Shown here: positions 3,242 through 20,501 of the stretch, piece by piece | Numbering within the stretch: the first letter of the stretch is position 1 | Layout of the letters: each line of letters begins with the position of its first letter | NCBI GenBank assembly: GCA_030145195.1 | Contig: JAQYVY010000019.1 | Span: 1-60,364, forward strand | Origin: Desulfuromonadales bacterium | Lineage (GTDB): Bacteria; Desulfobacterota; Desulfuromonadia; Desulfuromonadales; BM103 | DNA: 60,364 nt | Direction: 5' to 3' | Position numbers and translations under genes: made by a program | The notes under the pieces: generated by a model | What the model was told of the DNA's origin: nothing | The model's input: only the letters and a program-made list of their open reading frames with translations | The model's database searches: none

Positions 3242-3447
3242 CAAGTTCAACGCCACCAGTGGTTTCTAGCCCACGCGTTTCGAAAGTCGGCAGCAGAATG
3301 ACGCAACCAGCATGCCGCGAATCGTGTATCTCCATAAAAGCTTCAACATTAAATCATAAAAGGTTGTCAGCACGAACAAGCGCACTGGTCAATTTTCGAA
3401 AAAAACACGTCCAAAGCCTAGGAAGTGTCCGTGCTCTCATAGGCGAT
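3242..3447 (-). pseudogene. Decayed nucleotidyltransferase fragment, paralogue of the gene at 4785-5507
   Basis: This gap has no intact gene, but minus-strand translation lines up with the middle of the intact nucleotidyltransferase next door. The relic reads LVRADNL, then NVEAFMEIHDSRHAGCV, then TFETRGLETTGGVELD. The intact gene reads LVHADNL, DVGAFIERHNTRPVGCV and TFETDAPETCGIVEFD. The relic carries an internal TGA after LVRADNL and a probable frameshift just upstream, where VFFEN-PVRL matches PFFGNGPMML. It has no start, no GxGTRLRP motif and no C-terminus. It is a truncated duplicate between the flippase and the glycosyltransferase. Confidence 0.85.
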
Positions 3448-5507: not shown

Positions 5508-6988
5508 TTGAGGATCTCCGCAACGAGTTCATCATGAGAAAGAGGGATGTTCCCAATTCTGCCAACCTGACAGGCCGCTGCAAGAGACCCTAAATAGGAC
5601 GCCTGCCAGATATTTGCACCGACGGCCAAAGCCATCGCTGCAGCAGTTAGGAAAGAGTCACCTGCACCAGCCGTATCCTTAGGAGCCATATTGAGGGCAG
5701 GCATTCGATCCGTTGGCCATTGGTTCTGTTTAGTCAATTTAGCCTGAATCAACATCCCCTCGGAACCAAGGGTGACCACCACGTTTTCTGCATGGGATTT
5801 TTCCCGTAACTTTTCCGCCAGCACCACCAACCCGGAATCAAAATCCTGAGCAGCCAGCCGCGCCTCGCGCTCGGTAGGGGTGACCAGCACCATTCCTTTG
5901 AAACGAGACACGTCCCCCACCTGCGAAGAAGATTGACTATCTGCTGCCATCATAATCCCTCGTTGCTGGCACTCGGAAATGATCTCAGCCACCATAGATT
6001 GTGGCAGGCAACCATAGTTGAAGTCGGCAAAGAGCAAAAGGTCTACATTTTCAAGGACAGCACCGATATCATTCATGATCTTTTCGCGAAGTTCAGAACT
6101 GATATCGTGCTGGCGCAAATGGCTGACTCTAAGAAGGGTTTTCCCAGATGCACGAAAGCGCTGTTTCAGGGTTGTTGGGCGGCTATCGTCTTCGTAGTCA
6201 AACAAGTCCACGTTGAAAGTCTTCAGTTTTTCGCGAACAAATCCAGCCGTTTCATCAGCGCCAAGAACTGTGAAGAATGACGCCTGTGCCCCGAGGTTGC
6301 GCGCATGAGCAGCAACAATCCCAGCGCCACCGATAAACTTTTCATGCATCACAGGAGTCACCACAATGGTCGGATCTTCCTGCGACATTCCAATCGGGTC
6401 ACAGCTGATATACTCATCAATGATCGTATCACCCAGAACGCAGACCCTCAACTGTTTCATCCGTTCTAATATTGCCAAGATGCCATCTGAATCTATGTCA
6501 TGGCGAGAGAGATAATCATGAGGAAGTCGAATCGTCGAAAGGTTGAGCTCCTGCCATTCTTTTCGCAGAAGATCCACTGAAGAAAAGACTGTATCTCCCG
6601 AACTGAACAGAAGCTTTCCTCCATAGTCAGCAACAATCTCAGATTCCGGATTATCCTCTCCTTCATGCTCGTTTCCCTTAACAACAATTTCCGGTCTCAA
6701 CGCCTTGATAAATTTAGCAGGTGGTTCATGAAGTATAAATGCATAATCGACCCACTGGATGGCTTGAACACCTTCAAGTCGAAAATTAACATCGACATAA
6801 GCTCCTGATGATGAAGAGCCCAAAACCCCAACAACAAGATAATCTCCACATTCCTGGGCGAAACGGAGTAGACGCAAATGCCCAGGATGAAGAATATTAA
6901 AGTTACCTGAGACAAAAACAACTCGCTTTGATCCTGTTGCTAAAGCAAGTCGTTCAAGCTCAACATGTGAAGATGCGCATAGATTCAT
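5504..6988 (-). CDS. HldE-like bifunctional enzyme with reversed domain order (nucleotidyltransferase, then PfkB kinase)
   Basis: Residues 22-145 form a cytidylyltransferase-like domain with the HxGH nucleotide-binding motif (HPGH, 34-37). Residues 180-494 form a PfkB/ribokinase-type kinase with an N-terminal GDTIIDEY motif, a Gly-rich FIGGAGIVAA segment (218-227) and the catalytic GAGD (441-444). HldE, which makes ADP-heptose from heptose-7-phosphate, has the same two domains but with the kinase first. Here the nucleotidyltransferase comes first, so this is a circular swap of the usual fusion. The likely role is phosphorylation and nucleotidylation of a heptose or related sugar, but this is inferred. 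It overlaps the next gene by 4 bases. No gmhB-like phosphatase was seen in the locus. Confidence 0.8.
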   Translation of the reverse strand: MNLCASSHVELERLALATGSKRVVFVSGNFNILHPGHLRLLRFAQECGDYLVVGVLGSSSSGAYVDVNFRLEGVQAIQWVDYAFILHEPPAKFIKALRPEIVVKGNEHEGEDNPESEIVADYGGKLLFSSGDTVFSSVDLLRKEWQELNLSTIRLPHDYLSRHDIDSDGILAILERMKQLRVCVLGDTIIDEYISCDPIGMSQEDPTIVVTPVMHEKFIGGAGIVAAHARNLGAQASFFTVLGADETAGFVREKLKTFNVDLFDYEDDSRPTTLKQRFRASGKTLLRVSHLRQHDISSELREKIMNDIGAVLENVDLLLFADFNYGCLPQSMVAEIISECQQRGIMMAADSQSSSQVGDVSRFKGMVLVTPTEREARLAAQDFDSGLVVLAEKLREKSHAENVVVTLGSEGMLIQAKLTKQNQWPTDRMPALNMAPKDTAGAGDSFLTAAAMALAVGANIWQASYLGSLAAACQVGRIGNIPLSHDELVAEILN

Positions 6989-7058: not shown

Positions 7059-8993
7059 TCAATATTCAGTTATTCCAAGGTTTGATACTTGCCCCGCTTT
7101 AATAACGCTATTTACAAAATCAATCGCATCGGGCCAGTAGTCTCCCTTTTGTCCAAATTCACATTGGATTTCAGCTTTCTCTATCCCTATTCTCCGAGCA
7201 TGAAGGCAAAGCTCGTCGAAATACTGAGGGATATTATAATCAAAGTGAATAACTTTGTGGTTATTAGTTGACCATGTCTGCACCCGAGCCTCTTGGTAAG
7301 CAAATATCTGCTTTAGCAAAAGCTCATCAAAAGTGACACCCTTGTCTTGCAAATACTGATTCGTAAAAGAAAGTAATTCCAAGTAGAATTTTTGTTTATC
7401 GGAAAGAATTTGTAACAATGCAGCCTCGGATGGCTCCAGAGCAACTTGACCAGTCAATCGGCTTTTTGCGACAGAAGCTTTTTCGTCAAGAATAGATTGA
7501 TTAGTCGCCTCAAAAACAGAGACACTCTTTCCAATAGCATCAAAAGCTTCGTCACTTGAAAAATGGATCAGCTGTTTCATGTAATCCATCAAGTCTATAT
7601 CAAGCTCATACTTGAGGTAATTCATGACAAAAAAAGCGACACGATAATTGTATAACGTCACCAAACAATAACTTATGTTATAGAGGTTCTTCCATTCTTC
7701 AACTGAACAGGTTGACGTTGAAACAACCAGATCCTCATATTCAGGAACACCATTTTCCAAGCTCTCCCGTCTACCCATCTCAACCAGACAGCTCCTAGTC
7801 TTAAGCTGGTATCGGCTAACGTAGTCAGGATTGGCCATTTCTGAGCCATTTAAAAGTCGACACAGGTATATGGAAAAATAGTAATCAAGATAGGGGAAAA
7901 GGATATTATTCAAACCGGCAACAAACGAATGATAGGTCTCGTTTGGGAGGCCTAGAATCAAATCGGTGTGCAAACCGAATCCCAAGGCATTTGTTGTTTT
8001 TACTGCATCATTGAAATCAGCTGTACTCATATTGTATCTCTTTACAGCCTGAAGAGTCGAGGGGTTGAAACTTTGAACGCTTAATGTCACTCTGAAATCT
8101 AGGCCACCTTGTTTCAAAGCATCAGCAATGCGTAAAACAGCATCCGAGGAGTGTTTAGTCCAATTGACCATCAGAAAAGAAGGGAACCCCGTCTCTTCAA
8201 ATGATCTGGCAAATTCTTTGGCAATATCTAAATCGCGTTTTAAAATACCAAAATTCGCATCTGACGCATAAACATAGCGAATCTTGTTTTGGCTTATCCA
8301 CTGGAGTTCGTTAAAAACCCTCTCTTCAGGAAACTCCCGAACCCTGGTTTTCTGAACTTGCCCCCAGTAACAAAAAGTACAACCAAAAGGGCATCCTCTA
8401 TTTGTTTCCCAAAGAGACCCGGTAAAAACATCAGGGAAGCGATGTAATAGTGAATCAAAAGTACCGTCAAGAAAGGGCGAAGCAAGCGTTTCAAGGTCAG
8501 TTGTTGTTTGTCTGGATTCGGTAAAGGCTAATCCACCAAGACTATCTAAAAAAGCAATGCCTTCAACAGTTGAAAGAGGCTGGTTTTCAATCAAAGCAAA
8601 AAGAATTTCTGCAAAAACCAGTTCGCCTTCACCATGAACAAACACATCTATCCATGGGTATTTTTCAGAGAAGCTAGAGACTTCACCATGGGCGGGTGAT
8701 GACGGCCCACCAAAGATAATCACTGCCTCAGGATGCTGTTGTTTAACAAACTTGGCGATCTCTATACTCTGCCGAATATTCCAACTGTAGCACGAGAAAC
8801 CTACAATCTTAGGATCTGTCATGGCTCTCGCAGTTTCTTCTGGCTTTTCGCGAAGAACCATAATCTCGAAATCATAAAAATCGTTCAGCTTCGGAATGCT
8901 TTTAGAGTAGGACACCAACATTCCTGCCGCTAAGGGAAGTAAGTTCCTGTCGGTAGGGGTGTTAATTTGAAGCACATAAACATTATTATTCAT
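7059..8993 (-). CDS. Cobalamin-binding-domain radical SAM enzyme
   Basis: 644 residues. The N-terminal 140 or so look like a B12-binding Rossmann domain (FSCYSWNI, IIFGGPSSP, VHGEGE motifs). A radical SAM barrel follows with the cluster motif C201-x3-C205-x2-C208 in RGCPFGCTFCYWG. The C-terminal 200 residues are not recognisable. This class includes C-methyltransferases and other enzymes of difficult C-C or C-S chemistry, and several act in glycan or antibiotic pathways. Its position between an alcohol dehydrogenase and the HldE-like gene suggests it alters a sugar or a lipid head group, but the substrate is unknown. The final step might be methylation, and that is only a family-level guess. 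Confidence 0.8.
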   Translation of the reverse strand: MNNNVYVLQINTPTDRNLLPLAAGMLVSYSKSIPKLNDFYDFEIMVLREKPEETARAMTDPKIVGFSCYSWNIRQSIEIAKFVKQQHPEAVIIFGGPSSPAHGEVSSFSEKYPWIDVFVHGEGELVFAEILFALIENQPLSTVEGIAFLDSLGGLAFTESRQTTTDLETLASPFLDGTFDSLLHRFPDVFTGSLWETNRGCPFGCTFCYWGQVQKTRVREFPEERVFNELQWISQNKIRYVYASDANFGILKRDLDIAKEFARSFEETGFPSFLMVNWTKHSSDAVLRIADALKQGGLDFRVTLSVQSFNPSTLQAVKRYNMSTADFNDAVKTTNALGFGLHTDLILGLPNETYHSFVAGLNNILFPYLDYYFSIYLCRLLNGSEMANPDYVSRYQLKTRSCLVEMGRRESLENGVPEYEDLVVSTSTCSVEEWKNLYNISYCLVTLYNYRVAFFVMNYLKYELDIDLMDYMKQLIHFSSDEAFDAIGKSVSVFEATNQSILDEKASVAKSRLTGQVALEPSEAALLQILSDKQKFYLELLSFTNQYLQDKGVTFDELLLKQIFAYQEARVQTWSTNNHKVIHFDYNIPQYFDELCLHARRIGIEKAEIQCEFGQKGDYWPDAIDFVNSVIKAGQVSNLGITEY

Positions 8994-9129: not shown

Positions 9130-10170
9130 TTAAATCCCCATATCTATCAAGGCACGAACAATATTGCGTTGTTCAAGATCGTTGAGAGCATCGTTAATAT
9201 TCTCAAGGGGATATCGTCGATTATTCAGTTTTTCCAAAGGGAGTTTGCCCGCAAGATACAGGTTAACAAGTCTTGGGATATCGCTGTCAGGAGAACACCC
9301 GCCTCCCCAACTACCTTCAAGCCGCTTACCACTAATCAAATCATGGGGGTCTATTGAAATTTTCTCACCTGATGGCGGGTGCGATGCAAAGACGCATAAA
9401 CCGCCAAATTTTCGCACAGAATTAAACGCTGACTCTATGACCTCTACCGTGCCTGAGGCTTCAATGGCATAGTCTACGCCCTTACCACAGGTCAGACGCA
9501 ATATCTCTTCAACAGCATTTACTCGTGTACTGTTAAAAGTATGTGTCGCACCACAGCTTCGAGCAAACGCTAGTTTGGATTCCTCAACATCAACAGCAAT
9601 GATTGTTGAACACTTAAAAAGCCCAAGCGCCATTAATGCGCTGGCCCCAATTCCCCCAAGTCCAAACACAGCGACAGTAGCCCCATCAGTAGGCCGAACT
9701 TGATTAACTACGATTCCAGCACCGGTGAGAATCGCGCAACCAAAGATTACTGCCAGATCCATGGGCAGGCCGTCAGGCACTTTTACACAACGGTTTTCCG
9801 AAACAACAGTATGTGTGGCAAAGGTTGTTACTGCACCTGCATTAATTCTTTGACCACCCTTATGGATTGTGGGACCGGAAACATCGAGGCCTTCTCCCTT
9901 GATCCAGCCAAGAATAACCTTGTCTCCAGGCTTAACCTTAGTGACACCTTCACCTACTGCGACTACCGTCCCCGAACCCTCATGTCCTAAAAGGTGCGGT
10001 AGATAGGGATCTTCTCCTCGCTTGCCACGAACTTCCATGAGTTGACTATGACAAACGCCGCTGAAAGCAACCTTGACTGCAACCTGGCCTGCGGCAGGAG
10101 GTGGGAATGTTATTGACTCAACTTTGAGAGCATCAGTGAAGTTATAGAGTATGGCAGCTTTGGCTCGCAA
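9130..10170 (-). CDS. Zinc-dependent medium-chain alcohol dehydrogenase
   Basis: 346 residues of the MDR family: catalytic-zinc segment GVCHSQLMEV near 37, LLGHEGSGTV near 61, and the NAD(P)-binding GLGGIGASAL near 170. The usual four-Cys structural-zinc lobe (around 90-110) is absent; that stretch reads GWIKGEGLDVSGPTIHKGG instead. The start codon is TTG at 10170, supported by GGGAG six bases upstream; no ATG nearby fits. It probably oxidises or reduces an alcohol/keto group on a pathway intermediate; the substrate is not inferable. It follows the ThDP enzyme after a 170-base gap that carries a GC-rich hairpin pair. Confidence 0.8.
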   Translation of the reverse strand: MRAKAAILYNFTDALKVESITFPPPAAGQVAVKVAFSGVCHSQLMEVRGKRGEDPYLPHLLGHEGSGTVVAVGEGVTKVKPGDKVILGWIKGEGLDVSGPTIHKGGQRINAGAVTTFATHTVVSENRCVKVPDGLPMDLAVIFGCAILTGAGIVVNQVRPTDGATVAVFGLGGIGASALMALGLFKCSTIIAVDVEESKLAFARSCGATHTFNSTRVNAVEEILRLTCGKGVDYAIEASGTVEVIESAFNSVRKFGGLCVFASHPPSGEKISIDPHDLISGKRLEGSWGGGCSPDSDIPRLVNLYLAGKLPLEKLNNRRYPLENINDALNDLEQRNIVRALIDMGI

Positions 10171-10340: not shown

Positions 10341-12074
10341 TCAACTTTCCGCGCCAAGAGACGATAAGAAGGGAACCATCTCCGACAAAGGTTGCGGGCT
10401 GAAAGTTCCGTCTGCGTTGGCCCGATAGCCCTGTTTAAACAAAACATCCTGATCCTCATCAACTACGACCTCACAGATTATCGGACCTGCCGTTGCAAGG
10501 AGATTCTGCACAGCAGAGTCAATGCAATCTGCTCTATCGAGACGAACATAGGGAATCTCAAAAGCAGAGGCTATTTTCTCGATCGACGGCATCTTCAATT
10601 TCCACTCCGGATGCGTACCGAAGAACCTGCCACCTAAAAATTCTTTTTGCGTATGACGAATCGCCAGGTAACCATTGTTGTTGATTACACTTATTACAAC
10701 GTTGATATTATCCTGTTGTATCGTCTGCAAGTCCTGAACATTCATCAAAAAACTTCCATCGCCGATTACGCACAGGAATTTTGAGAAACCGGCAAATTTT
10801 GATGCGCCGATAGTCTCTGCCAACCCAGTCCCCATAGCAGAAATTGCAGAAGAGCAAATAATCCTGCTGTTTTTCTTGAGAAATGAGCTTTGAAACCCAG
10901 CATAAAGAGCGGTGCCACCACCATCAACAACTAGGCAGGTGTCGTCGGGCGCCTGTTCAGTCAATGTTCGGACATACTGATTGGAGTTTGGCAATTGTAT
11001 AGTTTTGGGAACATACCAGTTCTGATCCTTGAATGAAGCGAGATCAGGCCAATCGATTTTTTTTATCTCTCTCTTAATGAGCCAGTCAAGATACGCATTT
11101 ACATCCTCGTTGATTTTGACATCAAAGTTAACGTTCAGGTTATCAAGTTGGTCTGCGTCAATGTTAACGATTATTTTCTTCGCCTGCGGCGCGTAATTTT
11201 TAAAGAGTGTTGTCGTATGCGGGATAGAGAGATGAGTGCCGAGGCAGATTAGTAAATCGGCCTCGAAGACAGCCCGGTTTGCACCACGTTGACCACTCAT
11301 ACCGATGATGCCAAGATTTAAGGGATTGTCGGTTGTCGACAGGTCTGCCCCCGTCCAAGTGGTAACAAAAGGAAGATTACACTGCTCAGTCAAGGTATCC
11401 AGATGTGCCGAACGGCCAGCCAGCCGGACACCATAACCAAGAACAAGCAATGGTTTCTCTGCCTGATTCAATAAAGCAAGAGATGATTTTGCCCCGTTGA
11501 GATCTCGAATACCGGTAACCGGCTTCCTCCAGACGGCAACAGATTCTTTATTAAACTCAATATCGGACCATTGAAAGTCGAGGGGGAGATCCAGCCAGAC
11601 CGGCCCAGGACGGCCGCTGCGTGCAATTTCTAAAGCGTGGTTCAGTTCGTCAATAAAGTTATTCTTGTCATCGATGAACTTGCAATATTTGCAGATGGGC
11701 CTGACTATATCGCAGATATTAACTTCTTGCGTTCCTACCTGCCGCACCTTGCGCCCATATGACGTATGTTCTGACCTCACCTGCCCACTTATAAACAGAC
11801 AGGGGATAGAGTCCTGCCAGGCTGCAAGCAGTCCTGTAATGGCATTTGTTGCACCAGGACCAGTGGTCACAACGACACATCCCAGGTTTTCTGTGACCTT
11901 CGCATAGGAGACGGCAGCGAGGGCTGCCGACTCTTCATGATGGGTGTAAGTCACTCCGACCCCATGTCGTTCAAGCGAGTCAAAAATATGTACAACAGCA
12001 CCACCTTGTAAGCCAAACACGTGGCCGATGCCGTTAGTCTTAAGCACATTTGCTAATGCGTCAGTGAGCTTCAT
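10341..12074 (-). CDS. Thiamine-diphosphate enzyme, acetolactate-synthase-like
   Basis: 577 residues with the three-domain layout of the pyruvate-decarboxylase/acetolactate-synthase family. The N-terminal domain has the catalytic Glu in THHEESAA (E47). The C-terminal ThDP/Mg motif runs from GDGSF to INNNGY. Such enzymes decarboxylate a 2-ketoacid and add the remaining unit to an acceptor; YerE of yersiniose synthesis is a relative that adds an acetyl branch to a sugar. I start at ATG 12074 because GGAGTG lies six bases upstream. An upstream extension would overlap the SDR gene by 94 bases and is unlike the family. The enzyme follows the SDR with a five-base gap, hinting that the two work in sequence. 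Confidence 0.85.
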   Translation of the reverse strand: MKLTDALANVLKTNGIGHVFGLQGGAVVHIFDSLERHGVGVTYTHHEESAALAAVSYAKVTENLGCVVVTTGPGATNAITGLLAAWQDSIPCLFISGQVRSEHTSYGRKVRQVGTQEVNICDIVRPICKYCKFIDDKNNFIDELNHALEIARSGRPGPVWLDLPLDFQWSDIEFNKESVAVWRKPVTGIRDLNGAKSSLALLNQAEKPLLVLGYGVRLAGRSAHLDTLTEQCNLPFVTTWTGADLSTTDNPLNLGIIGMSGQRGANRAVFEADLLICLGTHLSIPHTTTLFKNYAPQAKKIIVNIDADQLDNLNVNFDVKINEDVNAYLDWLIKREIKKIDWPDLASFKDQNWYVPKTIQLPNSNQYVRTLTEQAPDDTCLVVDGGGTALYAGFQSSFLKKNSRIICSSAISAMGTGLAETIGASKFAGFSKFLCVIGDGSFLMNVQDLQTIQQDNINVVISVINNNGYLAIRHTQKEFLGGRFFGTHPEWKLKMPSIEKIASAFEIPYVRLDRADCIDSAVQNLLATAGPIICEVVVDEDQDVLFKQGYRANADGTFSPQPLSEMVPFLSSLGAES

Positions 12075-12079
12075 AATGA

Positions 12080-12868
12080 TCACTCCATATAGTTGAAGTA
12101 CATATAGTGCTTCGACTGACCAGCGTCCACTGGAATAATTGCACCATGACTGAAGGAGGCAAAATCCGAGCAATAGAACACAACCACTGGGCTAATTTCA
12201 TTCGCCTCACCGAACCGACCAAGAGGACAACGCTCTTTCAAATAAGTGGCGGCGTGTTGAGGGTTTGTCTCCAGCACCTTTTCCCAGTGACCACCTTTTG
12301 TTACCACCACACCGGGGAAAATAGCCGACATCACAACGTTTTTTGCCTCTGTCGCAAGAATGCGACCCATGGTCCTCGTGTAAGCCGTTAATGCCGCCTT
12401 GGAAACTCCATAAGTGACCGGTCCGCTATTTTCCAACCCGGCACATGATGTAATATTTACGATTCGGCCCCAGTCTCTCTTTTTCATTTGTGGTATCAGA
12501 AGGTTACAAATTTGCACCGCAACCTCAAAATTAAGACCCATGACTTTACGCCAATCTTCTATTGGGCAGTAGGGATCATAGATGTTGAAATTGTGGCCAG
12601 CGTTATTAACCAGGATATCAATATCATACGGGCTGATTGCTTCTTCTAATTTTGAAAGCCAGTCTGCAGCAAGAAAATCGATAAGGATGCCATGGCCTTT
12701 CACACCGTATTGACGAACTTGTTCGCACATCTGATCGAGGGAATTTTGATCTCTAGAGGTAAATAGGACATTGACTCCCTCTTTGGCGAAAGATTCCGTG
12801 ATGCTTGCACCGATTCCATTCGCCCCACCAGTCACTAATGCATATTTGCCTGCGATTCCAAGTTCCAT
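12080..12868 (-). CDS. Short-chain dehydrogenase/reductase
   Basis: 262 residues, a classical SDR: cofactor loop TGGANGIG (13-20), NNAG around 90, and the catalytic Tyr-x3-Lys in TYGVSKAA near 153. It likely reduces a keto group or oxidises an alcohol with NAD(P)H. The neighbouring ThDP enzyme and C-methyltransferase suggest that the substrate is a keto-sugar or an acyloin made by them, as for YerF after YerE in yersiniose synthesis; this is inference by analogy. It is spaced seven bases from the preceding methyltransferase. Confidence 0.85.
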   Translation of the reverse strand: MELGIAGKYALVTGGANGIGASITESFAKEGVNVLFTSRDQNSLDQMCEQVRQYGVKGHGILIDFLAADWLSKLEEAISPYDIDILVNNAGHNFNIYDPYCPIEDWRKVMGLNFEVAVQICNLLIPQMKKRDWGRIVNITSCAGLENSGPVTYGVSKAALTAYTRTMGRILATEAKNVVMSAIFPGVVVTKGGHWEKVLETNPQHAATYLKERCPLGRFGEANEISPVVVFYCSDFASFSHGAIIPVDAGQSKHYMYFNYME

Positions 12869-12875
12869 GATTACC

Positions 12876-14042
12876 TCACGTCAGTATTGTCGGTAAAACG
12901 ATATTCTTGATGTCGAGCATCGCAAGCTTATTAAAAATGGCCCGCGCCGCGCTCTTTGTGCTTATCGAAGTAATCAGCACTGGGTCTGCCAAATTTAAGC
13001 GTGCTAAAGGCACTATTTCTGGCGCCAAATTGATAAATCGTTTTCCATGCTTGGACGTGTTTTCATCGATGATCTGCCGCAACGAATTAATTATTGGCAA
13101 ATGATACGACAAGGTCGGCACCATCAACCCCGCCCCAAAACCGGTACCATTCTCAAAAATCGGTAACAAAGCATCGTTCAGACACATGTAGTATTGTCTG
13201 AAAAACTCGTAATTGTAGACGATGGAGGAGAAAGACAGGTCTGCTAGGCAACAATCAACTGTCGCCACATTGTTAAGAGATGCGGCCACCCTTAGAGTTC
13301 CAAAATGAGCATCATCATATTCGTAATCCAGGATATGCATCCCGTATTTACCCAATAACATTTTAATTGAAGCCAGTGAAAAATAATTTATATGTTGATG
13401 GCAAATCTGGTCAAAGCGCAGGTTTTTGGACAGCATTTCCATGGAGGGAAACTGCAAAAAACAGTAATCACCGTCATTCAGTGATTCACTTATCCTTCTC
13501 ACAAGTTCATCGGGCTGAGCCAGATGCTCAATGGTGTGACTTGAGACGATAATTTTTTTATCATGCCCCTTATAGTGGCCCAAATCAACGTCCTCGAGAA
13601 AGCACTTATTCAGTTCGTAGCGCTCCCCACCTGTGGCGTTTGGATCTATGTTGATAAGCCTTAGATCGAGATCACTGAAATAGCTGAGGAATGTTGAGTC
13701 ATTGCCCCCGATATCGAGCAACATTTCGTAACCGTTAACACTGACATGCCTTTCAACAAAAGCCTTGAAACCCTTCAGGCAATCTATGGCCCCTTGACTG
13801 GCTGCACTCGTCGTTATGTAGTTTTGGTAAATAAATTTGACATCCAAAACTTTTTCGAGATACGCGTGGCTACAGTCTTGGCAAAAAAGCAAAGATTGAT
13901 CGAGAAAGCCATCTTCCAAAAACTCTGGTGACCAGTCAACGTACAACTCGGTAATGGGATACTTCATAAGAGAAATAGCCTGTCTGCCATGCGATCGGCA
14001 AACAGGACATTTATCTTGGAACGAAAACTTTATATCAGTCAT
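12876..14042 (-). CDS. NDP-sugar C-methyltransferase-like protein
   Basis: 388 residues with the three-part layout of deoxysugar C-methyltransferases. A zinc-binding N-terminus carries C12/C15 and C54/C57. The central SAM domain has DIGGNDSTFLS at 110-120. The C-terminal domain contains FDQICHQHINYFSL, matching the FDxxxHEHxxYFSL signature of the family (TylC3 and similar). These enzymes add a methyl to a carbon next to a keto group of a nucleotide-linked sugar. It lies just upstream of the SDR, so methylation followed by reduction of a 4-keto sugar is plausible. The exact carbon is unknown. Confidence 0.85.
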   Translation of the reverse strand: MTDIKFSFQDKCPVCRSHGRQAISLMKYPITELYVDWSPEFLEDGFLDQSLLFCQDCSHAYLEKVLDVKFIYQNYITTSAASQGAIDCLKGFKAFVERHVSVNGYEMLLDIGGNDSTFLSYFSDLDLRLINIDPNATGGERYELNKCFLEDVDLGHYKGHDKKIIVSSHTIEHLAQPDELVRRISESLNDGDYCFLQFPSMEMLSKNLRFDQICHQHINYFSLASIKMLLGKYGMHILDYEYDDAHFGTLRVAASLNNVATVDCCLADLSFSSIVYNYEFFRQYYMCLNDALLPIFENGTGFGAGLMVPTLSYHLPIINSLRQIIDENTSKHGKRFINLAPEIVPLARLNLADPVLITSISTKSAARAIFNKLAMLDIKNIVLPTILT

Positions 14043-14049
14043 AACAAAC

Positions 14050-15219
14050 CTACCCTAGTAACCCTTTCAACTTTTTCATACCCCTCTCAATGTTTTGCAT
14101 TGAGTTAGCATAACAGAAGCGAACATAGCCCTTGCCATAATCGCCGAAAAACGAACCGGGGCAGACCGCGACACCAACCTCACGCAATATCCGATCAGCA
14201 AATTCCAGGTCATTTAGACCAGTCTTCTTTATGTTTGCAAAAGCATAGAACGCTCCCTGTGGCATAATACAGGAAACACCCTTTATATCATTCAACATGA
14301 CTACCATGAGATCACGCCGTAGTTTGAATTCTCCCATCATCTCTGCAATTGATTCTTGACTCGATGACATGGCTTCAATCGCAGCGGACTGAATAAATGG
14401 AGAGACACATGAGGACGTTGTTTCAAGGAGCAAAGCCATTTTTGAGACCAAATCAGCGGGAGCTGTCATTGCACCAATCCGCCAACCGGTCATCGCGTAT
14501 GACTTACTGAACGAATGAATAACAATGGTGCGTTCCCTGCAGTGGTCATACTTACTTGGTGATGCAAATTTGGTGTTCGAATCCTCATAGACCATTCGGC
14601 CATACACTTCATCACTAACCAGATACAAATCGTGTTTATTGGCAATGTTGTAAATTGCCTCAATCTCTTCCGCGCCTAGCACTGCTCCTGTTGGGTTGTG
14701 AGGCGAGTTAATCAAAATCATTCTGGTTTTAGGAGTAATTGCCTTCTCGAGGTCGTCTGGATTCAACTTGAATCCATTTTCCTCAAAAAGTGGCACACTC
14801 ACTGGAACAATACCCAAGAATTTCATAATCGACTTATAGGAAACAAAGCACGGATCAACCGTTACAATTTCTTCTCCAGGGTTAACAGTGCAGGCCATGG
14901 CATAGAAAATCTGCAGGTTCCCTCCCTGAGTTACCAGAATCTGATCATAATCTGGCCTAAACCCCCGTGACTTGCTCGTCACTTCGGCTGCGGCCTCTTT
15001 GAACGCGTCCAACCCTGACGAAGTCGTGTAATGTGTATCTCCTGAGCGAAGCGCATCAACGCACTTTTCCACAATGTTAGGTGGTGTGTCGAAGTCAGGA
15101 TCTCCGATTTCGAAATGAATAATATCTCTACCCGCTTGTTCGAGTTCATTAGCAAGGGCCAGAACTTGAAACATGCGTTGCCCTTCCAACACTTTGGCTG
15201 CATCGGAAAAATGTTTCAT
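14050..15219 (-). CDS. PLP-dependent aminotransferase, class I/II
   Basis: 389 residues, fold-type I. The NSPHNPTG motif (171-178), the SDEVY motif with D203 and Y206 contacting PLP, and the Schiff-base lysine K239 in SFSKSYAMTGWRIG are all present. It resembles aspartate- and aromatic-type aminotransferases, which interconvert amino acids and 2-ketoacids, rather than the DegT-type sugar aminotransferases usual in O-antigen clusters. This suggests that it supplies or consumes a 2-ketoacid for the ThDP enzymes beside it, which is inference. It follows E1-beta after 14 bases. Confidence 0.85.
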   Translation of the reverse strand: MKHFSDAAKVLEGQRMFQVLALANELEQAGRDIIHFEIGDPDFDTPPNIVEKCVDALRSGDTHYTTSSGLDAFKEAAAEVTSKSRGFRPDYDQILVTQGGNLQIFYAMACTVNPGEEIVTVDPCFVSYKSIMKFLGIVPVSVPLFEENGFKLNPDDLEKAITPKTRMILINSPHNPTGAVLGAEEIEAIYNIANKHDLYLVSDEVYGRMVYEDSNTKFASPSKYDHCRERTIVIHSFSKSYAMTGWRIGAMTAPADLVSKMALLLETTSSCVSPFIQSAAIEAMSSSQESIAEMMGEFKLRRDLMVVMLNDIKGVSCIMPQGAFYAFANIKKTGLNDLEFADRILREVGVAVCPGSFFGDYGKGYVRFCYANSMQNIERGMKKLKGLLG

Positions 15220-15233
15220 CGTTTGTTATCTCT

Positions 15234-16292
15234 CTAAAAAGGCCCCTTAAACCACTCCCCCGGAACATCATGGGGACTCGTCCGACTTTGGATGAGTTCA
15301 TCCGTATCCAAGGTCATATTTAAAAGGTCGGCAACCGCCTGCATAATATCTTCTGCTCTTGGATAATATTTTTCCGAGAGCGCGGGGCTTGTTGGTGTTG
15401 GATAATCAGGTAGTGCAATTCTCACAGGTGGCGATTTTAATTCATGGAACAACTCCATGCTTACACGCGCAATAATTTCACTTGCGATTGAGAGGGTCTG
15501 ACTCGCAGTATCGAGTGCAATCAACCGTCCGGTTTTTTTAACCGACTCGAAAACTGTGGGCCAATCAATCGGGTTGACAGAGCGTAAATCTATGAGGTCA
15601 CAGCTAACGCCCTGCTTTTCCAAATGCTCGACTGCATGGAGTGCTTCAATCGTCATATACGAGAAAGAGACAAGGGTAACATCTTGACCACTGCTCAACA
15701 CTTGTGCCTCGCCAATTGGAACTCGATAATCCCCTTCAGGAACCTCGCCCTCAATATTATGCAACCAGCGATGTTCGAGATACACCACCGGATTGTCATC
15801 AAAGATTGCCGACAAGAGTAATCCCTTGGCATCGGCGGCGGTAGAGGGCATCACCACCTTCAACCCCGGAATATGAGCAAACCATGATTGCAAGTTCTGG
15901 GAATGCTGTGGCCCCTGCCCCCAGCCTCTGCCCAGGATGAGCCGGATGGTGATCGGAACGGAACTTTTGCCGCCGAACATATAAGACCACTTGGCAGCAT
16001 TGTTGACCAGTTGATCCATCGCCAGCAGAAAGAAATCAAGCCGCTGATGAGTCATTACCGACCGGGTCCCATTTAAGGCAGCGCCGATAGCAACACCAGT
16101 CATTGCATTTTCCGCCGTTGGCATATCGAATACACGCTCGGGGCCAAACTCCTCTACCAACCCTTCAGTCGTTCCAAAAATTCTCTTGGGATCATCAACA
16201 CCCAACCCGAATGTAATCACATTGCGGTCTTGGCGCATGGCGACACAGAGAGCTTCGTTGATGGCCTGTCCGTAGGTAAGGACTCGTTTCAT
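15234..16292 (-). CDS. 2-ketoacid dehydrogenase E1 component, beta subunit
   Basis: 352 residues with the transketolase-type pyrimidine-binding domain (motif DMPTAENAMTG near 95-105, whose Glu activates ThDP) and the C-terminal transketolase domain (ALDTAS, then ALPDYPTPTS). Its ATG overlaps the stop of the alpha-subunit gene (ATGA, 16289-16292), so an alpha2beta2 heterotetramer is expected. No E2 acyltransferase, lipoyl carrier or E3 was seen nearby. The pair may therefore act as a stand-alone decarboxylase or ligase on a 2-ketoacid, or borrow the general E2/E3. Confidence 0.85.
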   Translation of the reverse strand: MKRVLTYGQAINEALCVAMRQDRNVITFGLGVDDPKRIFGTTEGLVEEFGPERVFDMPTAENAMTGVAIGAALNGTRSVMTHQRLDFFLLAMDQLVNNAAKWSYMFGGKSSVPITIRLILGRGWGQGPQHSQNLQSWFAHIPGLKVVMPSTAADAKGLLLSAIFDDNPVVYLEHRWLHNIEGEVPEGDYRVPIGEAQVLSSGQDVTLVSFSYMTIEALHAVEHLEKQGVSCDLIDLRSVNPIDWPTVFESVKKTGRLIALDTASQTLSIASEIIARVSMELFHELKSPPVRIALPDYPTPTSPALSEKYYPRAEDIMQAVADLLNMTLDTDELIQSRTSPHDVPGEWFKGPF

Positions 16293-17287
16293 AATGATGC
16301 CCCTTCATCCTCTTTGTAGAGATACTTACCCAACTGATCAGGTGAAGGGAAAGGTGAGTTTTCTGCAAAAGCAAAGGCATCATTAACTTCGGCGACAATT
16401 GATCTCTCCATCTCCGAGAGAGCTTCTTTACTTAAAACTTCGTCGCCACACAATTTTGCTTCAAAAACTTCCACGGGGTCTTTTTGTTTCCAATCCAGAT
16501 ATTCCTGTTCAGACCGGTAGCCTATGTCATTGTCAAAGTTAGGGCCACAGTGTTCACGCCAACGGTAGGTGCTGAACTCCAGTAGGACCGGGCCACCCCC
16601 AGAGCGAATCGAAGCCACTGCACGTGACGTTTTGGCATATACATCCAAGACATCGTTGCCGTCACCAGTTTCGCTCGGGACACCAAGGCTTCTGGCAAGT
16701 TCATATATTTTTCTGTTTGCAGGTTGACGCACCTGAATTGGCGAATAAACAGAATATAAGTTGTTTTCACAGATGTAGAGCACTGGCAATTGTTTGATTA
16801 CCGCGAAATTGAGAGATTCATAAAAAACCCCTTCTTCTGTGGACCCATCGCCCAAAAACACACAGGAGACTTGATCGGTTCCTTTCAGACTGACGGAAAG
16901 CCCCAAACCCGTTCCCACAGGAATCGTCCCACCAACAATGGAGGTACTCCCCATGAACCCGACCGACTCATCAATAAGGTGCATTGAGCCACCATGCCCG
17001 GAAGAACAGCCGGTACTCTTGCCATAAATTTCAGCCAACATCCGGCTGAGGTCGCCCCCTTTGGCCAGATAGTGTCCATGCGAACGATGGGTACTCACAG
17101 CAAAATCTGTATTTCTCAATGTTGCACAGACCCCAACCGCAACCGCCTCTTGCCCAGTACAGAGGTGCGTAGGACAGCGCATTTTCCCTTCTGAATATCG
17201 AGCCGCAATCGTCTCCTCAACACAACGGATGCGCTTGACTCCATGAAGCAATCTGACTCGTTCTATATTATTGATCAATAACGTCAT
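16289..17287 (-). CDS. 2-ketoacid dehydrogenase E1 component, alpha subunit
   Basis: 332 residues with the ThDP-Mg motif from GDG (146-148) to ENN (174-176), and a THRSHGHYLAKG segment near 66-77 typical of E1-alpha. It starts with ATG at 17287 and has AAGG seven bases upstream. It pairs with the overlapping beta gene. Substrate type (pyruvate, branched-chain or other) cannot be read from sequence. Its place in a polysaccharide cluster is unusual and suggests use in making a sugar substituent. Confidence 0.85.
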   Translation of the reverse strand: MTLLINNIERVRLLHGVKRIRCVEETIAARYSEGKMRCPTHLCTGQEAVAVGVCATLRNTDFAVSTHRSHGHYLAKGGDLSRMLAEIYGKSTGCSSGHGGSMHLIDESVGFMGSTSIVGGTIPVGTGLGLSVSLKGTDQVSCVFLGDGSTEEGVFYESLNFAVIKQLPVLYICENNLYSVYSPIQVRQPANRKIYELARSLGVPSETGDGNDVLDVYAKTSRAVASIRSGGGPVLLEFSTYRWREHCGPNFDNDIGYRSEQEYLDWKQKDPVEVFEAKLCGDEVLSKEALSEMERSIVAEVNDAFAFAENSPFPSPDQLGKYLYKEDEGASL

Positions 17288-17299
17288 TTTTGCGCCTTA

Positions 17300-17959
17300 T
17301 TATGGGACAAACCAGTAGTAGTCGCCGGTGTAGCCCGTTTCATGAAAGAACGCCACCCATTCATCCACGCTCATGATCGTTTTAGCGGTTAAATTCCAGG
17401 CGTACATCCGTTCTTTCTCTTCATCATCCCGATAAGCATCGACGGTAACAAAGCTCTTCCCACGGCTGACACGCTCAATTTCCCGCAACGCTTGAGCACA
17501 TTCTTCCCGTTCCAGGTTGTGTATTGTGTTGATCGAAATGACCACATCAAAAGAGTTGTCAGGGAAAGGCAAACCCCTCGCATCGGCAACCTGAACATGC
17601 TCCTGCATATCCTGAATAGTATGGGCCACTGCATAGCTGGAGACATCTATACCCTTGACCGTGATTCCAGGGATCAGTTCGGACAAATCGTGCATCATGA
17701 AACCTTTTCCGCAGCCGACATCAAGTACAGAGCTTGATCCTGTCAAACTGAAATGCTTCTTGAATGTAGGGATCACCGGTTGCCAGAATCTGGGATTGTA
17801 AGCATAACCACCATATCCGTATTGTCTGTCGCCATCGAAAAAGTCTTTGCCGAACTGACGGGCAACGGCTCTGACTTCCTCGGTCTTGGCTTCCACACGT
17901 CCCGATAAATCGCGTTTTGCTTTCGGATAGTTAACCAACAAATCAACTTCAGACCCCAT
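17300..17959 (-). CDS. Class I SAM-dependent methyltransferase
   Basis: 219 residues. The SAM-binding motif VLDVGCGKGF lies at 78-87, with an acidic GIDVSSYA loop and a VISINTIHNLE motif after it. The fold matches small Methyltransf_11/25-type enzymes. It starts the ThDP cassette, 12 bases upstream of E1-alpha. The methyl acceptor is unknown. No zinc lobe or extra C-terminal domain is present, unlike the two other methyltransferases in the locus. Confidence 0.75.
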   Translation of the reverse strand: MGSEVDLLVNYPKAKRDLSGRVEAKTEEVRAVARQFGKDFFDGDRQYGYGGYAYNPRFWQPVIPTFKKHFSLTGSSSVLDVGCGKGFMMHDLSELIPGITVKGIDVSSYAVAHTIQDMQEHVQVADARGLPFPDNSFDVVISINTIHNLEREECAQALREIERVSRGKSFVTVDAYRDDEEKERMYAWNLTAKTIMSVDEWVAFFHETGYTGDYYWFVP

Positions 17960-17971
17960 TATATTCGTCTC

Positions 17972-18913
17972 CTAAAATTCAAGATTTTTCTTCATTGCCT
18001 TGATGTTGTAACAGCCCTCATCATCCGCAATAGCCCCGGATCGATAAGCCTCGGTCACCATGCGGATCGCATCGGCAACACCATACTTAGGGACAAATCC
18101 GGTTGCCAGCAACTTGTCGGAGTTCTGTCGATAAGAGCGCGGATCATTGGATGCCGTAACGACGATCTCTGCCGGCACGATCTCTGTGACCATGCGGGCT
18201 ATGTCCATGATCGTGATATTCTCGAAACCGGCATTATAGATTCCCGGAGCCGAGGCCCCTAATTTCAGAAAATGGCAATACACTTCAACCATATCCATTA
18301 TCGTGATGTTCGGTCGCGTCTGCTCACCGCCAAACACCGTGATCCGGCCGTTCTTGAGCGCCTGCACCGTGAGCATATTCACGGAAAGATCAAGCCGCAT
18401 GCGCGGCGATACGCCGCAGACGGTGGCGGGACGGATACATTGGATCGTAATCCGGTCCTGGTAGCTCAGCAGCACCCGTTCACTGATCATCTTGGTCTTG
18501 TTGTAGTCAGTGATCGGGACCAGCGAGAGGTCCTCTGTTACCTGCGGTTCATCCTTAACCCCATAAACGCTGCCTGAGCTGGCATAAATGAACTGTTTGA
18601 CACCACAGGCGATGGCACGCTCAACCAGCTGCATCGTCGCCAGAACATTCACCTCCCAAGAGAGCTTAGGGTTCAGGTCACTGCACGGGTCGTTGGCCAC
18701 GTTGGCCAGATGGAGAATTGCTTCGACGCCTTCCAGCGGGATAGCCTCAGCATTACGGACATCTTCACGGATGACGGTCAGATTCTCATGATCGGCAAGG
18801 AAATTACCAAACCATTGCGCATCGACGACGATGACCTGGTGGCCATCATCCAACAGCCGTTGTGTCAGGTTGCTGCCGACAAAGCCGCAGCCACCGGTTA
18901 CTAAAAGTTTCAT
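17972..18913 (-). CDS. NAD-dependent nucleotide-sugar epimerase/dehydratase
   Basis: 313 residues, extended SDR. The cofactor motif GGCGFVGSN lies at 7-15, and a catalytic Tyr-x3-Lys (YNKTK) lies near 134-138. It resembles UDP/GDP-sugar 4-epimerases and reductases. It is translated right after a second extended SDR (18929-19927), a common pair in which one dehydrates the sugar nucleotide and the next epimerises or reduces it. The sugar may be GDP- or CDP-linked heptose or hexose; this is not resolved from sequence. Confidence 0.8.
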   Translation of the reverse strand: MKLLVTGGCGFVGSNLTQRLLDDGHQVIVVDAQWFGNFLADHENLTVIREDVRNAEAIPLEGVEAILHLANVANDPCSDLNPKLSWEVNVLATMQLVERAIACGVKQFIYASSGSVYGVKDEPQVTEDLSLVPITDYNKTKMISERVLLSYQDRITIQCIRPATVCGVSPRMRLDLSVNMLTVQALKNGRITVFGGEQTRPNITIMDMVEVYCHFLKLGASAPGIYNAGFENITIMDIARMVTEIVPAEIVVTASNDPRSYRQNSDKLLATGFVPKYGVADAIRMVTEAYRSGAIADDEGCYNIKAMKKNLEF

Positions 18914-18928: not shown

Positions 18929-19927
18929 CTATGGTTTATGAACATAATTCATGGGTAACTGTTGCAAAGTATCCAGGTTTTTACGGATCCAATCGATGGT
19001 CTCATCGACCCCGATTTCAAGTTTGATCTTGTCCTGCCAACCGAGGGTCTCTCGCGCCTTGGCGCTGTCGAGCAAATAGGCGGCATCCTTGCCGGGGCGT
19101 TCATCCACTACCTCAACATACTCGTCGAAAGAGACGTCCAGGCGGTCAGCGACCATCTCAACAAGCTGCCGGATCGAAATATTTCTGGCCGTCGAAAGGT
19201 GGTAGATCTCACCCGGAGGGGCCTGACGCATGATCTTCAGAGTGCCATCCGAAACATCGTTGATATGGATGAACGAACGGACTGAATGACCACCGCCATG
19301 GAGCTGCAGCTTGCGCCCGGTCAGAAAAAACAGCACCGTGCGGGGAATGATCCGGTAAAGTTGCTGCCCCGGGCCATATACGTTGGCGGCGCGGGTAAAG
19401 ACCACCGGAAAATCGTACTGCTGAAACCAGGTCATCAGGCTCATGTCAGCTGCAGCGCGCGATACCGCGTAAGGGGTGCTTGGAGCGTAGTTCGTATTCT
19501 CCTGCACCAACCCAGAACAGGAACCGTAAACCTCGGGCGTAGAGATGTGCACATATTTCTTGATGAAATCACACTGGCGCAGCCGTTCATGCAGTTGCAC
19601 TGTAGAGACGACGTTGGTCATCATCCAGTGATCCGGGTTCTGCCAGCTCTCACCCACCATGCTCTGGGCCGCAAAGTTCACGACATAGTCCGGTTTAAAC
19701 TCATGAACCAGAGCCATTAACGGATCAAGATCATGATTCAAATCGATTTTAAAAAAGCGGAATTTCTGCTGTAGCTCTCCTGCTAACCAGCGATACGGCA
19801 GAAATACCTGGTGGAGTTCATCCGAGCGACTCGCACCAACAACGTCGTAGCCGCCAGTCAGAGCGGAGGCGATAAAGCTCGCTCCGGAGAAAGCGTTGCT
19901 GCCCAATACAAGAATTTTATCAGGCAT
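18929..19927 (-). CDS. Nucleotide-sugar 4,6-dehydratase-like SDR with a YxxxR active site
   Basis: 332 residues, similar to GDP-mannose or dTDP-glucose 4,6-dehydratases: GSNAFSGASF cofactor loop, a central NFAAQS motif, HISTPEVYG, and a C-terminal YVHKP. The usual Tyr-x3-Lys pair reads TPYAVSRAAAD, with Arg (codon CGC) in place of the catalytic Lys. This may mark a subfamily or a changed activity. It would give a 4-keto-6-deoxy sugar if it acts as the family does. The stop is one base from the SIS gene's frame, so the genes are tightly packed. Confidence 0.75.
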   Translation of the reverse strand: MPDKILVLGSNAFSGASFIASALTGGYDVVGASRSDELHQVFLPYRWLAGELQQKFRFFKIDLNHDLDPLMALVHEFKPDYVVNFAAQSMVGESWQNPDHWMMTNVVSTVQLHERLRQCDFIKKYVHISTPEVYGSCSGLVQENTNYAPSTPYAVSRAAADMSLMTWFQQYDFPVVFTRAANVYGPGQQLYRIIPRTVLFFLTGRKLQLHGGGHSVRSFIHINDVSDGTLKIMRQAPPGEIYHLSTARNISIRQLVEMVADRLDVSFDEYVEVVDERPGKDAAYLLDSAKARETLGWQDKIKLEIGVDETIDWIRKNLDTLQQLPMNYVHKP

Positions 19928-19928
19928 C

Positions 19929-20501
19929 TTATTTTCTTTCCCCCGGAGGATTCTCAGTTAACCACTGCATCAGCATGTGTCCGACAATAACCTGTAAATC
20001 CTCGGCGATCTGCATGTCATCAACAGCAACGTGTATTGCCATGTCGGCAAGATCCAGAGCTTTGCCGCCGGAATAGCCAAGGATCGCAAAAGTAGCAAGC
20101 TTCATTTGCTTGGCAACTTCAATCGCCCTGACAATATTGGGGGAATTGCCGCTACCGGACAGTACTATTAAAACATCGCCGGGCTGGGCATAGCCCTTCA
20201 ACTGCTCTGAAAAGATATCGGCATAGGAAACATCGTTAGCCAAACAGGTCGTGATCGACTGGTTTGCCGATAGCGCCTGGACGCACAGACCTGGCCCCTC
20301 AATATCTTTGGCTATCCCGTAGAAGAAATCATTTGCCAGATGGATTGCGTTTGCAGCGCTGCCGCCATTGCCACACAGGAAGACCTGTCGACGTTCACGC
20401 CAGGCCTTACCCAAAACGGCAGCAAGAGATTGAATCTCATCGAGCGGCAAAGCTGCAATTGCCTTTACCAATCGTGCCTGATAATCAGTAATCTTTTTCA
20501 A
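19929..20501 (-). CDS. SIS-domain phosphoheptose isomerase (GmhA-like)
   Basis: 190 residues, a single SIS domain with GNGGSAANA near 44-52, a SANQSITT segment and VLSGSGNSPN near 115-124. GmhA turns sedoheptulose 7-phosphate into D-glycero-D-manno-heptose 7-phosphate, the first heptose step. This copy is intact, unlike the fragment at 330-602. Together with the HldE-like and nucleotidyltransferase genes it supports a heptose pathway. DiaA-like roles have a similar fold, but the neighbourhood argues for sugar metabolism. Confidence 0.8.
   Translation of the reverse strand: MKKITDYQARLVKAIAALPLDEIQSLAAVLGKAWRERRQVFLCGNGGSAANAIHLANDFFYGIAKDIEGPGLCVQALSANQSITTCLANDVSYADIFSEQLKGYAQPGDVLIVLSGSGNSPNIVRAIEVAKQMKLATFAILGYSGGKALDLADMAIHVAVDDMQIAEDLQVIVGHMLMQWLTENPPGERK

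Follow-up and report, generated by a model that had tools for sequence, protein, structure and literature searches.

Sugars branched at carbon by thiamine diphosphate (ThDP)-dependent enzymes are already known, as are the YerE-like enzymes and the E1-type pairs that make such branches. Section 2.2 of the review PMC12247030 describes split E1 pairs that place a pyruvate-derived two-carbon unit on C3 or C4 of antibiotic keto sugars, an activity that is either known or proposed, and in the part of PMC4425429 consulted here paulomycins are lost on disruption of pau11 and regained on complementation. Section 2.1 of the same review gives ErwE a preference for 4-hydroxy-2-oxo acids, the structure 8rph is identified as JanthE in the consulted part of PMC12188165, and the corresponding part of PMC10680097 describes the formation of GDP-4-keto-heptose by Cj1427 with alpha-ketoglutarate. 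Here we describe a locus of a Desulfuromonadales bacterium (assembly GCA_030145195.1) in which a split E1 pair and a YerE-like enzyme are encoded within one run of sugar genes; it lies on a stretch of 60,364 nucleotides, positions 1 to 60,364 of contig JAQYVY010000019.1, that was analysed as a whole and is called the window. The chances appear evenly balanced that the product of this locus is an activated, carbon-branched higher sugar destined for a surface glycan, with the E1 pair branching a nucleoside diphosphate (NDP)-4-keto-heptose and the YerE-like enzyme adding an acyl unit. Branched-sugar chemistry had been proposed for the locus in a first-pass annotation of the same DNA and is still the best reading.

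That annotation listed seven minus-strand genes, encoding a class I S-adenosylmethionine (SAM)-dependent methyltransferase (MT), E1-alpha, E1-beta, a class I aminotransferase (AT), a sugar C-methyltransferase-like protein (CMT), a short-chain dehydrogenase/reductase (SDR) and a ThDP enzyme, and all of them are present in that order and on that strand, with domains that agree (Table 1). As one functional unit, however, the seven genes were rejected, because their exact order was found in none of 80 related loci and none of 14 further E1 loci. The 80 loci are the best 80 of 209 from genome contigs that encoded a relative; 23 of them extend for less than 2 kb from E1-alpha on the shorter side, and in a subset of 41 both flanks measure at least 6 kb. 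The 14 further loci consist of 11 loci (L173 and L180 with other E1 motifs, L174 and L179 with no clear motif read) and of L135, L136 and L150, which are the loci with the EHCGP motif described below among the 20 that were fetched from 23 E1-alpha matches in the window's own phylum. As controls, 19 E1 loci from relatives were searched with the same queries, 13 of them flanked equally to the 41-locus subset; 16 of the 19 bear the phospho-loop motif of pyruvate dehydrogenase (PDH), and in the E1-alpha tree the remaining three (L113, L117, L118) fall next to these. Queries for the SDR, SDR2, CMT, ThDP, transketolase (TK) and Mhp genes were taken from the window and from members of the same 80 loci, the identity thresholds were fixed after the hits had been seen, and the Fisher tests of co-occurrence treat loci as independent.

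The module conserved among the 80 loci consists of a SIS-domain isomerase, two NAD-dependent sugar enzymes (epi1 and epi2), MT, E1-alpha and E1-beta, together with a Zn-dependent dehydrogenase (ADH), an HldE-like kinase and a nucleotidyltransferase (NT). In the 41 well-flanked loci the kinase was found 33 times, epi1 31, epi2 30, the gmhA-like SIS gene 28, MT 24, ADH 19 and NT 15 times, and each of these seven core genes was absent at threshold from all 13 equally flanked controls. On these counts the conserved unit comprises MT, E1-alpha and E1-beta from among the original seven plus genes beyond the borders of the seven; in the window the minus-strand run continues past both borders, and the unit crosses them. 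The linkage of E1 to NDP-sugar genes holds across phyla. The nearest arrangement was found in a metagenome-assembled genome (MAG) of Rhodocyclaceae (L037), with the order epi1-gmhA-epi2-MT-E1a-E1b-AT-SDR2-ThDP-ADH-kinase-NT. The role of 2-keto-acid supplier first suggested for the E1 pair was not borne out; the pair is part of a separate and widely conserved NDP-heptose-type module.

The AT, CMT, SDR and ThDP enzyme form a variable tailoring slot apart from the E1 module. Comparison of the ThDP enzyme with YerE had already been made from the sequence and is upheld by its matches: JanthE (8rph) scores 303 bits over residues 2-570 of 577, followed by 5ahk with 227 bits, a record titled acetolactate synthase II that we take to be YerE of P. 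protegens, and by the next acetolactate synthase with 194 bits; the gene also sits in a glycan or keto-sugar cluster. In the CMT-like protein, the N-terminal CxxC pairs and two His of TylC3/TcaB9 are present by alignment, and we presume that these have the roles of the CxxC pairs and active-site His in the C-methyltransferases of that type. A second carboligase was found in 27 of the 80 E1 loci, being YerE-like in 22 and a split TK in six, where both terms denote tblastn matches to the queries and the split TK was checked with Pfam in L006 and L034. All 27 loci encode an SDR of one of two families, as compared to 2 of the other 53, and a DegT-type sugar aminotransferase is nearly exclusive with the second carboligase (1/26 versus 12/30, among loci with at least 5 kb downstream). 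CMT and the window-type SDR accompany a YerE-like enzyme in L004, L018, L046 and L049, with the SDR 11 kb away in L046, and a split TK in L006, L034 and L044. The combination of two ThDP systems in one glycan cluster, which in the first-pass annotation was not known to have been characterized, is a recurrent one, and no description of it was found in the literature searched.

The two carboligases may act on one sugar or on separate ones. It is possible, if doubtful, that two ThDP carboligases of different superfamilies act in turn on one NDP-heptose to give a doubly C-branched sugar of at least nine carbons, in which case the E1/heptose module would be a widespread and unrecognised sugar pathway with a second-carboligase slot filled interchangeably by a YerE-like enzyme or a split TK. 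Two stacked pathways without double branching, with each carboligase serving a sugar of its own or with the YerE-like enzyme supplying an acyl precursor that resembles acetolactate, would fit the finding of no second carboligase in the fetched stretch of 53 of the 80 E1 loci. They would also fit the absence of E1 from the fetched stretch of all 20 YerE-like loci that were drawn from the ThDP side and do not overlap the 80, although in one of their genomes (G559) an E1 relative lies on a different contig (L173). However, the tailoring genes are placed between E1-beta and the core ADH and kinase genes in the window and in L011, L027, L036 and L037, and when the core proteins were searched against the window, the kinase, nucleotidyltransferase and SIS genes were each found in one full-length copy, so that stacked pathways seem rather doubtful.

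As for the 2-keto acid used by the YerE-like enzyme, AT and the E1 pair had both been put forward as its source, and of the two it is AT that may supply it. Among the 80 loci, the closest relatives of the window's ThDP enzyme are in L037 (71%) and L025 (59%), and the closest AT relatives are found beside them (75% and 60%); no AT relative was detected at L046, which has the next ThDP relative (52%). AT occurs in two of the 80 loci and the pair of acetaldehyde dehydrogenase and 4-hydroxy-2-oxovalerate aldolase in three, all five being among the 22 YerE-like loci. The latter three (L004, L016, L018) have this pair in place of AT, two of them with an HpaI-type aldolase as well, and the same pair is present in 3 of the 20 separately drawn YerE-like loci. 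The recurrence of a 2-keto-acid source beside the YerE-like enzyme thus supports the proposal that AT is a supplier, in few loci.

For the acceptor of the E1 pair, the resemblance of epi1 to Cj1427 is informative. In a phmmer search Cj1427 was the best match of epi1 (115 bits, the next having 88) with a shared SPRMRLDLxVN stretch, and for an AlphaFold2 model of epi1 (34 sequences, mean pLDDT 93.8) Cj1427 chains occupied Foldseek ranks 1 to 6 and reached VIA-align Z scores of 38.0 and 37.8, as compared to 36.6 for the next entry. A GmhB-like phosphatase was detected in 8 of the 80 E1 loci and an L-2-hydroxyglutarate oxidase (LhgO)-like gene in 7, each in none of the 19 controls; the one phosphatase tested (L022) passes the TIGR00213 cut-off and the LhgO-like member tested from the 80 (L025) falls below the cut-off of its family. 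Neither gene was found in the window. LhgO-like genes were seen near E1 in L002, L025, L026, L027, L035, L039, L077 and L086, and by their annotation such neighbours would fit a C4 dehydrogenase driven by alpha-ketoglutarate. Taken together, the Cj1427 resemblance and the LhgO-like and GmhB-like neighbours fit a 4-keto-heptose acceptor. The second NAD-dependent enzyme, epi2, has Pro in its TPE-type motif in all 46 sequences at 44% identity or above, the window included. TDE is the catalytic triad of RmlB; this triad is not intact in epi2, and a role as a plain 4,6-dehydratase was not upheld. The epi2 family probably has an altered chemistry.

Several observations weigh against a branched heptose made by these two carboligases. 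The core genes are not universal, L043, L057, L061 and L073 being examples with none of them, and the lead of Cj1427 over other sugar epimerases is modest (a gap of 1.2 in VIA Z). The SIS protein of the window is not a canonical GmhA (120 bits for TIGR00441, with a cut-off of 209); D and Q align with the Glu and His that we take to be catalytic in GmhA, and the host encodes a near-canonical GmhA at another place (204.8 bits). A role of the SIS protein as a plain GmhA was not upheld. Epi2 is without the Asp of the RmlB motif, so that the source of further ketones is uncertain. Coupling of AT to the ThDP enzyme is seen in three loci, the window included. Beyond the loci that supplied the queries, the link between second carboligase and SDR is weaker: among four further loci with a second carboligase, the two YerE-like ones have the SDR and the two with a split TK do not; L150 has an SDR with no carboligase found; and neither SDR family occurs at 35% identity or more in any of the 20 loci drawn from the ThDP side, which makes the SDR link particular to E1 loci. 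Finally, kinship of the E1 pair to the AviB1, Pau11 and KbDH pairs is a comparison of descriptions, not of sequences.

The divergent active site of the SIS protein hints at an unusual substrate, as would be expected if the E1 pair acted early, in the manner of a transketolase or DXS, and joined a 2-keto acid to an aldose phosphate to give a heptulose or 1-deoxy-ketose for the SIS isomerase and kinase. The product would then be lengthened and not branched, and the SIS and kinase genes (28 and 33 of the 41 well-flanked loci) are indeed about as strongly linked to E1 as epi1 is (31). Yet epi1, a likely maker of an NDP-sugar ketone, is equally linked and in the window is the second gene upstream of E1-alpha, and the split E1 sugar enzymes covered in section 2.2 of PMC12247030 branch keto sugars; such an early role is therefore unlikely.

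The E1 pair consists of separate E1-alpha and E1-beta genes with intact ThDP-enzyme domains, and the absence of E2 and E3 recorded for the seven-gene run was confirmed, no E2 or E3 gene being found nearby. No E2 or E3 gene was detected in the fetched stretch of any of the 80 E1 loci, including the 41 well-flanked ones, nor in the 14 further E1 loci or the 20 fetched loci of the window's own phylum. In the control loci, E2 was found in 16 of 19 and E3 in 8 of 19, and the three controls with no detected E2 (L101, L103, L118) are short contigs of 5 to 7 kb. The search for E3 was confined to the surroundings of the E1 loci. The host genome (G000, 99.95% complete) has a single E1-alpha at E <= 0.001, that of the window, and two PF00198 proteins, namely SucB of a sucA-sucB-lpd operon and a 241-aa protein that starts at the catalytic domain with no lipoyl domain ahead of it. 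SucB is the sole lipoyl-domain E2 found in this genome; four other hits to lipoyl/biotin domains were obtained. An ordinary PDH or acyl-CoA role for the pair was rejected on the 19 control loci and on this E2 set.

The pair also has signatures of its own. The phospho-loop region of E1-alpha reads TYRWxEHCGPNxDNxxGYR in the family, with EHCG in place of GHSxSDP in 72 of 75 aligned rows; the window protein has WREHCGPNFDNDIGYR and thus lacks the GHSxSDP by which the E1 of 2-oxoacid dehydrogenases is recognised, which is represented in 11 of 11 relatives used as controls by TYRFRGHSISDPGTYR and variants. E1-beta ends in a DVPGxWFKGPF tail (window 15234-15269) whose D, P, F, G, P and F are present in 99 to 100% of those family rows that extend to it, and a tail of the WFKGPF type has no counterpart in 16 PDH-type E1-beta controls. 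In an E1-alpha tree of 121 rows, from which two of 122 loci were left out as their pieces were too short, 81 of 82 EHxGP rows form one clade (SH-aLRT 97; the exception is L078), and the 16 PDH-type rows cluster together with a support of 99. Records labelled as belonging to 17 bacterial phyla, including cyanobacterial, SAR86, chlamydial and leptospiral ones, fall into the EHxGP clade together with one archaeal MAG; since many of these records are MAGs, single placements may be binning errors. It is more likely that the pair is itself a carboligase of the alpha-KADH2 kind (AviB1/B2, Pau11/12, KbDH) than a supplier of 2-keto acid. Even though the pair keeps the E1 fold and many of the residues that it shares with PDH-type E1, and SucB and Lpd are present in the genome, the lack of E2 and E3 in all 80 loci as compared to the 16 of 19 controls with E2, the replaced phospho-loop, the assignment of the only lipoyl-domain E2 to the sucA operon and the linkage to NDP-sugar genes across phyla make it very improbable that the pair is an ordinary 2-oxoacid dehydrogenase E1 that makes acyl-CoA with a general E2/E3 from elsewhere, for instance to decorate the glycan with acyl groups.

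Loci L137-L149 and L151-L154 of the window's phylum hold other E1 sub-families, whose loops read GHVGP or GHAG. Several lie beside DegT aminotransferases, no E2 or E3 was detected with any of them, and perhaps these are further sugar carboligases. An EHVGP-type E1 pair is encoded on plasmid pSGRIFU1 of Streptomyces griseofuscus (L084:18001-20047) in a cluster resembling those for natural products, with a ketosynthase (KS), an acyl carrier protein (ACP) and a condensation domain, and plasmid pSALBX2 of S. albogriseolus (L155) carries an E1-alpha relative at 74%.

In the branched-sugar pathway that we favour, we infer the reactions, the identity of the heptose, the order of the steps and the donor acids from gene content, gene families, module borders, signatures and co-occurrence, which were observed directly. 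The isomerase, HldE-like kinase and nucleotidyltransferase would produce an NDP-heptose, which the Cj1427-like epi1 would oxidise at C4 to a 4-keto sugar. E1-alpha/E1-beta, working without E2 and E3, would then decarboxylate a 2-keto acid, most likely pyruvate, and transfer the two-carbon unit to the keto carbon, and the Zn-dehydrogenase and methyltransferase would finish this branch. From the variable slot, the class I aminotransferase may make a second 2-keto acid, the acyl unit of which the YerE-like enzyme would join to another ketone of the same or a sister sugar; the SDR would reduce the new ketone and the C-methyltransferase would add a methyl group.

Table 1. Genes of the minus-strand run in the window, in order of transcription, with predicted roles and their basis
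Feature	Coordinates	Strand	Basis or remark
SIS-domain sugar-phosphate isomerase, divergent GmhA-like (core module)	19929..20501	-	TIGR00441 120 bits, cut-off 209
epi2, RmlB-like NAD-dependent sugar enzyme (core module)	18929..19927	-	TPEVYG replacing TDEVYG
epi1, Cj1427-like NAD-dependent sugar C4 dehydrogenase (core module)	17972..18913	-	proposed maker of the 4-keto-heptose acceptor
Class I SAM methyltransferase (MT; core module), 219 aa	17300..17959	-	domain search
E1-alpha, EHCGP family, 332 aa	16289..17287	-	E1_dh PF00676, 222 bits; putative alpha subunit of stand-alone ThDP carboligase
E1-beta with DVPGxWFKGPF tail, 352 aa	15234..16292	-	Transket_pyr/Transketolase_C; putative carboligase beta subunit
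Class I aminotransferase (AT), 389 aa	14050..15219	-	Aminotran_1_2; proposed 2-keto acid supplier for YerE-like enzyme
Sugar C-methyltransferase-like (CMT; TylC3/TcaB9 type), 388 aa	12876..14042	-	4rv9 E 1e-13; CxxC pairs and two His aligned
SDR reductase of CMT-SDR-carboligase module, 262 aa	12080..12868	-	SDR domain
YerE-like ThDP carboligase, 577 aa, likely start 12074	10341..12074	-	three-domain TPP enzyme; JanthE match residues 2-570
Zn-dependent dehydrogenase (ADH; core module)	9130..10170	-	
B12-binding radical SAM, KedN5-like; pathway membership uncertain	7059..8993	-	NF033712 249 bits, cut-off 700
Nucleotidyltransferase-PfkB fusion, HldE with domain order reversed (core module kinase)	5504..6988	-	TIGR02198 188 bits over 174-491, cut-off 345
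NDP-sugar nucleotidyltransferase (NT), HddC/MurU/RmlA type (core module)	4785..5507	-	
Wzx-like protein	3448-4794		downstream continuation of the run

At full length the open reading frame of the ThDP enzyme spans 10341-12173 (610 aa), and an ATG at 12074 gives the protein of 577 aa; the latter start is likelier because it avoids an overlap with the SDR gene and because the JanthE alignment begins at residue 2. With this start, adjacent genes among the seven are spaced by -4 to 14 bases. Relatives of MT were found in 46 of the 80 E1 loci, with identities of up to 77%, and in fold comparison AtmM and RebM head a list of generic class I methyltransferases, at a TM score of only about 0.55. The N-terminus of the HldE-like fusion is cytidylyltransferase-like. 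The B12-radical SAM protein encoded between ADH and the kinase may be a C-methyltransferase of the same pathway, and radical SAM matches in the related loci were all at 30% identity or less. Two minus-strand remnants were also noted, a GmhA/SIS-type fragment at 471-590 (26.9 bits) and a piece of 57 residues at 3234-3404 that is 49% identical to the nucleotidyltransferase at 4785-5507; both may be what is left of an earlier heptose gene set or of a duplicated one.

The distribution of the cassette is patchy, in keeping with the exchange of surface-glycan genes. With a limit of E 1e-98, E1-alpha relatives were found in 6 of 398 genomes drawn from the phylum of G444 and in 7 of 148 drawn from that of G445, the centre genome being counted in each. 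With a limit of E 1e-85 they were found in 24 of 395 genomes from the window's phylum, a count that includes the window genome, and the EHCGP motif is present in 3 of the 20 that were fetched. At E 1e-130 or closer, a ThDP enzyme was found in 1 of the same 395 genomes, which is that of the window itself. A tblastn search of plasmids with the YerE-like enzyme at E 1e-60 returned three records, all of them ilvG at 30%, and a search of viral contigs that reaches close relatives only found none of E1-alpha or AT.

Within the literature searched, from which subscription papers were mostly absent so that absence from print is not shown, no E1 pair with heptose, O-antigen or polysaccharide genes was found on point, and the word "heptose" does not occur in the main text of the review PMC12247030. 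Within those limits, three things look new: the occurrence of the E1/heptose module in polysaccharide loci of different phyla, the signatures that mark it, and how often it is paired with a second carboligase that is exchangeable. If this is true, PDH-like E1 pairs that tend to be annotated as central metabolism would be glycan enzymes in records of 17 bacterial phyla, many of them MAGs, and the EHCGP and WFKGPF signatures together with the neighbouring genes would allow the recognition of such pairs and predict C-branched heptoses in surface polysaccharides. The carboligases may also accept NDP-heptose ketones and in that case would be of use for the enzymatic synthesis of tertiary alcohols.

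Among the described systems, the alpha-KADH2 pairs of avilamycin (AviB1/AviB2), paulomycin (Pau11/Pau12), kibdelomycin (KbDH) and aldgamycin resemble the window in having split E1-alpha and E1-beta genes within a sugar cluster, with transfer of a two-carbon unit to a keto sugar proposed or shown in the consulted parts of PMC12247030, PMC4425429 and PMC4753412, and the window pair likewise has no dedicated E2/E3 and is linked to NDP-sugar genes. The sections of the review that treat these pairs concern secondary metabolites (PMC12247030), whereas the pair of the window belongs to a surface-glycan locus with heptose-type genes, is found in many phyla and has signatures of its own. Of YerE, ErwE and JanthE, the last is the best solved relative of the window's ThDP enzyme, matching it over nearly the full length, and a glycan locus is common to both; the window enzyme has GDG where JanthE has CDG, by alignment and by section 2.1 of PMC12247030. 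Unlike in YerE-type settings, it is accompanied by AT, CMT and SDR and by a heptose-type module that includes an E1 pair. With the Cj1427 pathway of GDP-heptose modification in Campylobacter jejuni, the window has in common an isomerase-like protein, a kinase, a nucleotidyltransferase and a Cj1427-like C4 dehydrogenase, but it differs in the HldE-like fusion kinase, the divergent isomerase and the E1 carboligase pair linked to the C4 dehydrogenase; in a term search of PMC10680097, "branched", "carboligase" and "thiamine" had zero occurrences. As to the split transketolases of miharamycin and amipurimycin, which are proposed to branch keto sugars, a similar enzyme occupies the YerE-like slot beside CMT and SDR in three of the related loci (L006, L034 and L044), and while the 13 split transketolases in section 2.3 of PMC12247030 are all from streptomycetes, these three loci are from Nitrospinota, Nitrospirota and Chloroflexota.

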